Part shown: piece by piece, positions 15,897 to 24,684 of the stretch
How the letters are laid out: each line of letters begins with the position of its first letter
Numbering within the stretch: position 1 is the first letter of the stretch
Origin: Rhizobium sp. BT04
Lineage (GTDB): Bacteria > Pseudomonadota > Alphaproteobacteria > Rhizobiales > Rhizobiaceae
NCBI RefSeq assembly: GCF_030053135.1
Contig: NZ_CP125648.1
Location: forward strand, 152,651 to 216,650
Direction: 5' to 3'
DNA: 64,000 nucleotides
Position numbers and translations under genes: made by a program
Notes under the pieces: model-generated
The model's database searches: none
Told to the model about the DNA's origin: nothing
The model's input: the letters and a program-made list of their open reading frames with translations, nothing else

Positions 15897-16808
15897 ATGA
15901 CCACTCACCGCTTCATTCCGACGATCTTTCACAATGTCATCGGCGCTCTTCCGCCGGCCCTGCACATCGCCGACGGCGACACCGTGGTCACCGAGACGCT
16001 CGACGCCGTCGGGTATGACAAGGACGGCGTCAAGCAGACATCCGGCCCCAATCCGATGAACGGCCCGATCTTCGTGGAAGGGGCCGAGCCCGGAGATGCG
16101 CTGAAGGTCGAGATCATCAATATGATCCCGACTAGGGATACGGGGTTCACCGGCAGCGTCGTCGCCGCCAATGTCGTCGATCCCGAGGCGGTTCGCGACC
16201 TGCCGCCGCGCGATATCGCGATCTGGGCGATCGACCGCGAGGCCTTGACCGTCCGGCTTTCAGAGCCGGTCGTGGGCCTTGAGAATTTCGTCCTGCCGCT
16301 TGCCCCGATGATCGGCTGTTTCGGCGTGGCGCCCAGCCTCGGCCAGGCGATATCGACCGCGACCAGCGGCGAATATGGCGGCAACATGGACTATCGGCTG
16401 TTCGGCCCGGGCACCACGGTCCGCTTGCCGGTATCGGCCCCCGGCGCTCTGTTCTTTCTGGGCGACTGCCATGCCGTGCAAGGGGATGGCGAGATCGTCG
16501 GGACCGGCATTGAGACCACCTTCGAAGTCACGGTGCGGCTGACGGTGGAGAAGAAGGCCGGCCTGGTCTGGCCGCGCGGGGAAACCGCCGAAGACATCTT
16601 CACCATCGGCAATGCCCGGCCCCTCGATCAGGCGCTCCAGCATGCGACCAGCGAAATGTTGACCTGGCTGGCGTCGGATTATGGCCTGGACAGGACGGCG
16701 GCCAGCCATCTGCTTGGCCAGGTGGTGCGTTACGACGTCGGCAACGTCTTCGATCCGGCCTTTACGATGGCATGCCGTGTCGCCAAGAAATGGCTGGTTC
16801 GCCGATAG
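15897..16808 (+). CDS. Acetamidase/formamidase family protein
   Basis: 303 residues from ATG 15897 (ATG 15864 is an alternative, 314 aa). Family features: HNVIGALPPALHIADGDTVVTET, NPMNGPIFVEGAEPGDALKVEIINM, a PMIGCFGVAP segment, GEYGGNMDYRLFGPGTTVRLPVSAPGALFFLGDCHAVQGDGEIVGTGIE and a C-terminal dimerisation region. Members hydrolyse small amides such as formamide or acetamide to ammonia and the acid. It converges with the first hydrolase of the LuxR-solo locus, and an amidase fits a pathway for amide-type plant signals or nutrients (inference). Confidence 0.9.
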   Translation: MTTHRFIPTIFHNVIGALPPALHIADGDTVVTETLDAVGYDKDGVKQTSGPNPMNGPIFVEGAEPGDALKVEIINMIPTRDTGFTGSVVAANVVDPEAVRDLPPRDIAIWAIDREALTVRLSEPVVGLENFVLPLAPMIGCFGVAPSLGQAISTATSGEYGGNMDYRLFGPGTTVRLPVSAPGALFFLGDCHAVQGDGEIVGTGIETTFEVTVRLTVEKKAGLVWPRGETAEDIFTIGNARPLDQALQHATSEMLTWLASDYGLDRTAASHLLGQVVRYDVGNVFDPAFTMACRVAKKWLVRR

Positions 16809-16829
16809 GCGATCGTCAGCGTGTCGTTC

Positions 16830-17744
16830 TCAGTCGTGCCGTGACAGGAACGTGGAAACGGTCGCCAGGCAAAGCTGCTTTTCCTCGACATGCGGCATGT
16901 GGCTGGAATTTTCGAACAGCACCCATTCGCAGCCGGGAACACGTTCGAGGTAGGGCCTGACCACCAAAGGCGTCGCCTCGTCGTATTTTCCCGAAATCAA
17001 CAGCGTCGGGGCTTCGATGCGGTCGAGCCTGTTTTCGATCGTCCAGTCCTTCATCGTGCCGATGACGTGAAATTCGGTCGGGCCGTTCATGTTGCGGTAG
17101 ACGGTGTTGTCCTCGTCCATGATCGCGAAGGTGCGGGCCACTTCAGGCGGCCACGGCACCACCCGGCAGACATGGCGGTCATAGAAGACGCGCGAGGCGG
17201 CGATATAGTCCGGATCGGTGAGACTTCCCGCCAGCTCATGTTTCAGCAATGTGTCCTGTACCTCTTTCGGCAGTTCCTGCCTCAGCCGGTTTGCCTCCGA
17301 AACCCAGGTGTGCATGTTGGCCGGCGAGTTGGCGATGACAAGCGCCTTCAGGCCTTGCGGCCGGCTCACCGCGTGTTCGGCGCCGAGCATGCCGCCCCAG
17401 GACTGGCCGAGAAAGGCATAACGATGCTGAATGCCGAGATGGGCAAGCAGCGCGTCCAGCTCTTCGAGAAACAGCCCAACCGTCCAGAAATCCGGGCCCT
17501 TTTCCGGAAGCCGGGTGGAATTGCCGTTGCCGAGCTGATCGTAGTGGATCACCGGGCGGCCGTCGAGGGCGGCGATATCCTTGAAAGAATCGACATAATC
17601 ATGCGTGCAGCCCGGCCCGCCATGAGCAACGACGAGCGGCAGCTTGTCACTTTCCAGCGAACCGGTGACACGATACCAGGTGCGATAGTCGCGAAAGGGC
17701 AAATAGGCTTCGTTGGTCACGATTTCGGCCACTAGCGTCTCCAT
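16830..17744 (-). CDS. Proline iminopeptidase-like alpha/beta hydrolase (first copy)
   Basis: About 304 residues. Oxyanion-hole VVAHGGPGCTHDY, nucleophile elbow FLGQSWGGML (Ser), Asp in ISGKYDEATP and His in ENSSHMPHVEE complete an S33-type triad; HYDQLGNGNST is the family's conserved strand. It would remove N-terminal proline or cleave related amides in the cytoplasm. Start: ATG 17744 is given, but GTG 17732 has GGAG 6 nt ahead and is a real alternative; the frame stays open to 17783. Downstream of, and co-directional with, the LuxR-solo gene. A 16-bp candidate operator lies 49 bp upstream. Confidence 0.9.
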   Translation of the reverse strand: METLVAEIVTNEAYLPFRDYRTWYRVTGSLESDKLPLVVAHGGPGCTHDYVDSFKDIAALDGRPVIHYDQLGNGNSTRLPEKGPDFWTVGLFLEELDALLAHLGIQHRYAFLGQSWGGMLGAEHAVSRPQGLKALVIANSPANMHTWVSEANRLRQELPKEVQDTLLKHELAGSLTDPDYIAASRVFYDRHVCRVVPWPPEVARTFAIMDEDNTVYRNMNGPTEFHVIGTMKDWTIENRLDRIEAPTLLISGKYDEATPLVVRPYLERVPGCEWVLFENSSHMPHVEEKQLCLATVSTFLSRHD

Positions 17745-23150: not shown

Positions 23151-23169
23151 CAACGAAGGGAACGAATTC

Positions 23170-24684
23170 ATGACAAACAGGTGGAAATCAATCGGGCTCG
23201 CAGCCCTGCTCGCCGGCCTGACGCTCAGCGCAAGCTATGCCGAGGCCGCCGGTGTGCTCACCATCGGCCGCCGTGAGGATTCGACGACATTCGATCCGAT
23301 CAAGACGGCGCAGAACATCGACAACTGGGTATTCTCCAACGTCTACGACGTGCTGATCCGCGTCGACAAGACAGGCACGAAACTGGAGCCGGGCCTTGCC
23401 GAAAGCTGGACCACTTCGGATGACGGACTGACCTACACCTTGAAGATCCGTGACACGAAATTCTCCGACGGTTCGCCGCTGACGGCGGAGGATGCCGCCT
23501 ACAGCCTGTTGCGCATCCGGGACGACCCTGCCTCGCTCTGGAGCGATTCCTACAAGGTGATCGACACGGCGGTGGCGACCGACGCGCACACGCTGACGAT
23601 CAAGCTCAAGAACCAGTCGGCGCCGTTCCTTTCGACGCTGGCGCTGCCCAATGCCTCGGTTATCTCCAAGAAGGGCATGGAAACGCTGGGCGCCGATGCC
23701 TATGGGGAGAAGCCGATCGCATCCGGCGCCTTCGTGATCGACGAATGGCGGCGCGGCGACCGCGTTATTCTCAAGAAGAACCCGAACTTCTGGCAGGCCG
23801 ACCGCGTCAAGCTCGATGGGGTCGAGTGGATCTCGGTGCCCGACGACAACACCCGCATGCTGAACGTCCAGGCGGGCGAGCTGGATGCGGCGCTCTTCGT
23901 GCCCTTCTCCCGCGTCGAGGAGCTGAAGAAGGATCCGAACCTCAATGTCGATATCGATGCCTCGACCCGCGAGGATCATCTGCTGATCAACCACGCGCAT
24001 GGCGCGCTCGGCAAGAAGGAAGTCCGCCAGGCGCTGGACCTTGCGATCGACAAGACGGCGATCGTCGATACCGTCACCTTCGGCCAGGGCACGGTCGCCA
24101 ATTCCTACATTCCGAAGGGCGCGCTCTATTATTATGCCGACAATCTGCAGCGGCCTTATGATCCAGCGAAGGCGAAAGAGTTGCTGGCGGCTGCCGGCGC
24201 TTCCGACCTGACGCTGAACTATCTGGTGCGCGCCGGCGACGAAGTCGACGAACAGACGGCCGTGCTGGTTCAGCAGCAGCTGCAGAAGGCCGGCATCACC
24301 GCCAATCTGCAGAAGGTCGATCCGAGCCAGGAATGGGACATGATCGTTGCCGGCGACTACGACGTCTCGGTCAACTACTGGACCAACGACATTCTCGATC
24401 CGGACCAGAAGACCACCTTCGTCCTCGGCCACGATTCCAACAACAACTACTCGACCAATTACAAGAGCGAGGCAGTGAAGGAACTGGTCGCCAAGGCGCG
24501 TCTCGAGCTCGACCCGAAGAAGCGCGAACAGATGTATGTCGATCTGCAGAAGATGGCCAAGGACGACGTCAACTGGATCGACCTCTATTACAGCCCCTAT
24601 ATCAACGTCTCACGCAAGAATATCGAGAACTTCTACCAGAACCCGCTCGGCCGCTTCTTCCTGGAAGATACGGTCAAGAACTGA
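23170..24684 (+). CDS. Periplasmic solute-binding protein of the dipeptide-type importer (DppA/OppA family)
   Basis: 504 residues starting MTNRWKSIGLA, with AAGGGAACG upstream of the ATG and a Sec signal peptide ending near ASYAEA. SBP family 5 features: GVLTIGRREDSTTFDPIKTAQNID, PGLAESWTTSDDGLTYTLKIRDTKFSDGSPLTAEDAAYSL, and the C-terminal KKREQMYVDLQKMAKDDVNWIDLYY. It captures the ligand for the preceding permeases. Given the LuxR solo, the ligand may be a plant-derived peptide or ethanolamine-like amide (inference). Last gene of the operon; a hairpin follows. Confidence 0.93.
   Translation: MTNRWKSIGLAALLAGLTLSASYAEAAGVLTIGRREDSTTFDPIKTAQNIDNWVFSNVYDVLIRVDKTGTKLEPGLAESWTTSDDGLTYTLKIRDTKFSDGSPLTAEDAAYSLLRIRDDPASLWSDSYKVIDTAVATDAHTLTIKLKNQSAPFLSTLALPNASVISKKGMETLGADAYGEKPIASGAFVIDEWRRGDRVILKKNPNFWQADRVKLDGVEWISVPDDNTRMLNVQAGELDAALFVPFSRVEELKKDPNLNVDIDASTREDHLLINHAHGALGKKEVRQALDLAIDKTAIVDTVTFGQGTVANSYIPKGALYYYADNLQRPYDPAKAKELLAAAGASDLTLNYLVRAGDEVDEQTAVLVQQQLQKAGITANLQKVDPSQEWDMIVAGDYDVSVNYWTNDILDPDQKTTFVLGHDSNNNYSTNYKSEAVKELVAKARLELDPKKREQMYVDLQKMAKDDVNWIDLYYSPYINVSRKNIENFYQNPLGRFFLEDTVKN

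Follow-up and report, generated by a model that had tools for sequence, protein, structure and literature searches.

What does a LuxR-type regulator sense, and how many promoters does it control, when its gene lies among hydrolase and importer genes with no luxI gene beside it? This question is raised by a locus of Rhizobium sp. BT04 (positions 15897 to 24684), which we characterized within a window of 64,000 nucleotides, the terminal 64 kb of the 216,650-base contig C2 in a 6.99-Mb genome of seven contigs; all coordinates are positions in this window. The locus comprises a luxR gene, two proline iminopeptidase-like genes, a peptide-type importer and an adjoining amidase gene. The original prediction held that a LuxR solo of the class found in plant-associated bacteria (PAB) is coupled here to all of these genes. 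Our analysis indicates that the locus is very probably an ordinary, well-kept member of the NesR/PipR-type Pip systems, with the amidase as a neighbor.

The LuxR solo and its conserved core

The luxR gene (17796..18593, minus strand) encodes a protein with Autoind_bind and GerE matches, i.e., with autoinducer-binding and helix-turn-helix (HTH) domains. A profile search of the genome contigs found no Autoind_synth match on C2, in keeping with a luxR gene that has no luxI partner. Six such matches occur on C3-C6, of which three are long and open, one is long with two internal stops, and two are short. The interrupted one (L012, G000:C4:256252-256773) is luxI-like, carries two internal TAG codons and is probably decayed. 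Since luxI-type genes are present on C3-C6 and none on C2, the genome probably makes N-acyl-homoserine lactones (AHLs), and the luxR gene of the window is unpaired. A further LuxR-type HTH match was seen on the minus strand at ~6325-6525 (G000:C2:158975-159175).

One explanation for the solo, suggested by the three luxI-type genes that are long and open, all on other contigs, is that the LuxR protein answers the AHLs of its own cell. Its binding pocket argues against this. At the residues equivalent to TraR positions 57 and 61, the W57/Y61 pair of AHL receptors is replaced by M67 and W71, whereas L001 and L005 of the same genome, which adjoin luxI genes, keep W and Y, as do L006 and L007 (the comparison leaves out L003 and L004, whose sequences are cut short, and L008). 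In addition, the PipR protein of Pseudomonas sp. GM79 is reported to be unresponsive to AHLs despite its W57 (PMC4981722). With residues 57 and 61 not of the AHL type, we judged AHL sensing by the window protein to be very improbable. M and W at these positions are instead a published mark of PAB solos (PMC10134790), and the regulator can be assigned to that class, as had been proposed, by its two domains, its lack of a paired luxI gene, its M/W residues and its adjacent pip genes with pip boxes. Across the nine key positions, the window protein has M W D P W G E L G. Solos of R. etli and R. leguminosarum have been printed with the identical nine letters (PMC3909224), so the occurrence of this regulator in Rhizobium is not new.

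Two proline-iminopeptidase family genes flank luxR, as the original prediction had stated, and both score above the TIGR01250 cut-off of 167.65 bits. Hydrolase 1 (16830..17744, minus strand; 257.7 bits) is in the PipA position, and hydrolase 2 (18722..19612, plus strand; 271.7 bits) is in the AapA position. An alignment of relatives places a conserved ATG of hydrolase 1 at 17744, 39 bases past the TTG of the raw open reading frame, and translation probably begins there rather than at TTG 17783. The GGPG, GxSWGG and SHMP motifs, which we take to be active-site motifs, are kept in both proteins.

Hydrolase 2 is followed on the plus strand by genes for permease 1 (19664..20602; BPD_transp_1, 137.6 bits), permease 2 (20599..21447, start set by homology; BPD_transp_1, 86.7 bits, and OppC_N), an ATPase (21444..23150) and a substrate-binding protein (23170..24684; SBP_bac_5, 325 bits). 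Because these genes share one direction and are separated by gaps of at most 51 bases or joined by 4-base overlaps, hydrolase 2 through the binding protein likely form a single operon, which bears out the proposal of a hydrolase-led operon with a peptide-type importer. The description of that importer as a DppBC-DppDF-DppA type needs one correction: all of its parts are there, but the two ATPase halves are a single 568-residue protein with two ABC_tran and two oligo_HPY stretches. The binding protein matches the crystallized AapF (7kz8/7kz9) with 787.4 bits and is identical to it at 342 of 482 residues (71%), with no gaps. The window system thus has the linked peptide-type ATP-binding cassette (ABC) importer and the AapF-like binding protein of a PipR/AapF-type system.

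Comparison with characterized systems strengthens this kinship, which had been anticipated. The regulator is 86% identical to its counterpart in Ensifer aridi LMR001 (L061) and 85% identical to that in S. meliloti 4H41 (L066), and both NesR loci share the gene order and the two boxes of the window; they differ in that no amidase was found beside luxR in either. Parts of two primers used to delete E. aridi nesR match L061 on either side of luxR, and E. aridi nesR is therefore the orthologue of the window gene. In the PipR-AapA-PipA-Aap system of Pseudomonas sp. GM79, two peptidase genes likewise flank the regulator, beside which lies a five-component importer (PMC4981722) with the binding protein compared above. 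The two systems differ in that the ATPases are fused and residue 57 is M in the window, whereas the GM79 ATPases are encoded by two separate genes and its PipR retains W57 (PMC4981722). In Xanthomonas, compared here via the literature, OryR, XccR and XagR are also PAB-type LuxR proteins with M57/W61 encoded beside pip (PMC3909224, PMC10134790) and associated with a CT(N12)AG box (PMC4471428). They differ in having no linked ABC importer (PMC4981722) and in that wider pip-box regulons have been proposed for them (PMC4399327).

When species genomes were scanned with a six-row alignment of LuxR, 169 relatives were confirmed; counts out of 80 below refer to the best 80 of these. All seven core genes, each above 60% identity, are present in 79 of these loci, and the one locus that lacks the full set, L074, is a stretch that stops at a contig end. 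This arrangement is accordingly not a matter of chance. LuxR was matched at 1e-60 in 102 of 148 genomes of the window's genus and, in a draw across the phylum, at 1e-40 in 12 of 398 genomes, own genome included. We examined the stretches around the other 11 phylum-draw matches. Four loci from one genus have the same core order, split ATPases and binding proteins 94-95% identical to AapF, on which ground they are probably Pseudomonas. A locus from another family of the window's order (L136) holds the entire core. ATPase halves are separate genes in the Rahnella and Klebsiella loci as well. No hydrolase 2 match was found in L131, L022 (Rahnella) or L024, and in L022 and L131 the importer adjoins luxR with no such match in front of it. 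L137 has luxR without the remaining core genes, and L138 has luxR and hydrolase 1 next to a different importer.

Pip boxes and the size of the direct regulon

Alignment of the intergenic regions revealed a 21-bp element that is strictly conserved ahead of hydrolase 2 (18625..18645, plus strand), and a near variant before hydrolase 1 (17789..17809, minus strand), the latter overlapping the 3′ end of luxR. Both window sites fit the CT(N12)AG form and match with 0 mismatches; both las boxes and pip boxes are reported to have this form (PMC4471428). The window contains exactly two box matches when up to 3 mismatches are allowed, vs. none in 100 shuffles. The 16-bp core of the box was found within 4 substitutions in 88 of 89 regions before hydrolase 2 (L022 and L024 have no hydrolase 2 match and hence no such region) and in 88 of 90 regions before hydrolase 1. 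With the Klebsiella row (L023) left out, the 21 box columns before hydrolase 2 have a mean conservation of 0.997 across 88 rows, vs. 0.62 ahead of them and 0.80 and 0.79 behind. The CT(N12)AG form, with perfect 6-bp arms, also occurs in L136 and L138. Together with the conserved core, the two boxes uphold the proposed coupling of both hydrolases and the importer to luxR.

How far the regulon might extend beyond these sites was gauged with a 19-bp pattern. In the Rhizobium sp. BT04 genome it has two matches at 0 mismatches and none at one or two. Two extra sites at 3 mismatches were taken as background, since the reversed pattern gives ten. The search covered 40 genomes chosen for having the LuxR protein: the own genome, 36 of the 101 other positives of the genus draw, one from another family (G091), E. 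aridi LMR001 and S. meliloti 4H41. At up to 2 mismatches, all 40 contain exactly two matches, one per strand, and every pair flanks luxR. Outside the locus the true pattern has none, vs. 22 matches for the reversed pattern, which is an imperfect control in that its background differs. In L133, a stretch from a presumed Pseudomonas, the window-clade pattern has no match at 3 mismatches; a second pattern, specific to that group, was derived from the group's own boxes. In four of four genomes this gave two luxR-flanking matches at up to 2 mismatches, with 26 reversed matches and no true match outside the locus. Overall, in none of the 44 genomes did the two clade-specific patterns, at up to 2 mismatches, detect a third site outside the locus. 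Since such sites were the source of both patterns, finding two is expected and the informative result is the missing third; any site departing by more than 2 mismatches would escape, and the search bounds strong direct targets only. Just two luxR-flanking boxes in each of 44 genomes predict a small, self-contained direct regulon of two promoters.

The operon promoter region carries a second conserved element, the inverted repeat TGCYCA-N5-TGRGCA (18679..18695, no strand assigned), which has one mismatch in the window. Allowing 3 substitutions, 88 of 89 regions carry the repeat, 52-54 bp past the box start, and L136 has a weaker copy at equal spacing. Of 74 stretches, each 17 bp long and outside the box, the three best conserved sat on this repeat (0.93), followed by the AT-rich stretch preceding it. 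Two readings of the element remain, a protein-binding site, as its palindromic form and fixed spacing would suggest, or a T-tailed hairpin formed on the luxR strand. There, with G-U allowed, pairing extends to 83 of 88 stems, and a T-rich stretch follows the stem; on the operon strand, 30 of 88 pair fully. The excess hangs mostly on one column. The repeat was listed as terminator-like on the luxR strand in a scan that gave five such sites in the window vs. 3.5 by chance. Folding of six stretches on the luxR strand gave z-scores of -1.6 to -2.6 for the best four, -1.4 for the window and -0.1 for L098. An RNA hairpin on the operon strand was rejected: the fold of window positions 18676-18760 was no better than shuffles and just the 30 stems noted above pair fully. 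The arms of the repeat showed no covariation (Fisher p 0.09, with the trend running against operon-strand pairing). In the own genome, the degenerate pattern occurs at 47 places with up to one mismatch, vs. 14 for its reverse, and the two exact matches that were inspected had no common theme pointing to a binding protein.

The amidase and the genomic surroundings

An acetamidase/formamidase-family gene (15897..16808, plus strand; 303 residues from ATG 15897, raw open reading frame from 15864; FmdA_AmdA, 89.8 bits) adjoins the block and points towards hydrolase 1, as the original prediction had noted. Among solved structures, its product is closest to members of the acetamidase/formamidase family, 5ubu and 2ii1 among them. 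It had further been proposed that the amidase is coupled to the circuit, where it could act as a third enzyme that cleaves an imported amide signal. The gene does adjoin the locus in 24 of the 80 related loci, and N-(2-hydroxyethyl)-2-(2-hydroxyethylamino) acetamide (HEHEAA) is an amide by name (PMC7301841). However, the gene is absent from the other 56, and all 24 loci that possess it carry yghU at the opposite side of the block. Three of the 56 share this yghU neighbor with no amidase match, two of them on short stretches (L035, 12.4 kb; L042, 13.6 kb) and one on the full 20.8 kb (L047). Among 14 loci examined separately, an amidase match was found solely in two of the window's genus. Moreover, none of 30 amidase upstream regions (24 from the set of 80, five from plasmid loci and that of the window) contains a pip box within 3 substitutions. 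A separate conserved block lies upstream of the gene in 11 of the 30 regions, those that were aligned; by eye it resembles an ordinary promoter, and the scan that gave the terminator-like sites did not list it. With no shared box and a linkage confined to a minority of loci, a role for the amidase in the circuit is improbable, and the gene is probably a neighbor outside it. This part of the original prediction did not hold up.

In eight related loci (L009, L010, L025, L028, L033, L039, L040 and L048), two genes separate hydrolase 1 from the amidase, one for an AraC-type regulator and the other for an NAD(P)H-binding protein; the window has neither there. The amidase (15864-16808) is closest to R. 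ruizarguesonis L009 (96%), and most other genes of the block are closest to Rhizobium sp. L43 (L025; 97-99%), a hint that the block may be mosaic. In the species-genome scan, LuxR is 97% identical in Rhizobium sp. L43. The 8.9-kb block has 92-93% identity in the 20 listed of 351 matching plasmid records, and all 20 are from Rhizobium. Divergent from the amidase is a gene for a HAMP-GAF-GGDEF protein, a probable diguanylate cyclase (13884-15692), and a gene for an HlyD-type secretion adaptor occupies 11746-13188 (TIGR01843, 349.6 bits).

Ligand and biological role

As a NesR/PipR-type system, the locus would work as follows. The AapF-type binding protein and importer would take up a small peptide-like or ethanolamine-derived plant compound, which the LuxR solo, whose pocket is without AHL-type residues at 57 and 61, would bind in the cytoplasm. 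Ligand-bound LuxR may then activate two promoters through the two pip boxes, that of hydrolase 1 and that of the hydrolase 2-importer operon. Extra importer would give positive feedback, and the hydrolases would give negative feedback by removing the ligand or its products. The strong direct regulon would be the two box promoters, with the amidase outside. In GM79, an importer mutant is unresponsive and peptidase mutants over-respond (PMC4981722).

Several points weigh against this reading. For Rhizobium sp. BT04 itself, the ligand class, the activation and the feedback are ones that we infer, and the sequence does not tell which ligand the system takes. The 71% identity to AapF does not fix it, because a close homologue of the GM79 binding protein reportedly does not bind HEHEAA (PMC10134790) and pip of Kosakonia was not induced by HEHEAA, ethanolamine or rice macerate (PMC7301841). 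In P. syringae pv. actinidiae, pip likewise showed no induction by plant extract that depended on PsaR2 (PMC3909224). On these negative results, the authors remark that the signal may have been absent under the conditions used. In E. aridi, the activity of a nesR reporter was near background, and NesR has been tied to the methionine cycle (PMC8877191). In the literature searched, we found no ligand reported for a rhizobial system. Ten loci (L020, L053, L055, L056, L061, L062, L066, L069, L074 and L075) encode LuxR proteins 84-87% identical to that of the window with binding proteins just 79-83% identical, vs. near 90% in other loci with the same LuxR identity; this perhaps reflects a shift in the transported compound, or transfer.

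Another theory is that the locus is mainly a nutrient scavenger, in which LuxR serves as a substrate sensor for the uptake and breakdown of peptides or amines, with no narrower role in plant signaling. In its favor, the boxes occur just at the system's own hydrolase and uptake genes, in the own genome and the others searched, and protein hydrolysates induce the GM79 system (PMC4981722). Against it, an E. aridi nesR deletion reduced shoot weight in two host plants and the number of nodules in one (PMC8877191). This defect does not exclude scavenging, as a nutrient system may have effects on symbiosis too, and we consider scavenging a real possibility at somewhat less than even chances. The same E. 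aridi deletion also impaired growth in 0.4 M NaCl (PMC8877191).

The kind of system described here is known, and the regulons of such regulators have been proposed to be wider elsewhere, as in Xanthomonas. A two-site regulon was stated nowhere in the literature searched, which covered few subscription papers. We hypothesize, at about even odds in our estimate, that rhizobial NesR/PipR systems are closed two-operator circuits, that the symbiosis and stress phenotypes of nesR arise from importing and degrading a plant compound and not from direct control of the methionine cycle, and that the second repeat either provides another input or ends transcription on the luxR strand. If the two-site regulon is true, the importer operon together with one hydrolase gene should restore what nesR mutants lack in symbiosis, and the box promoters would offer a ready-made reporter with which to purify the compound sensed by rhizobia.

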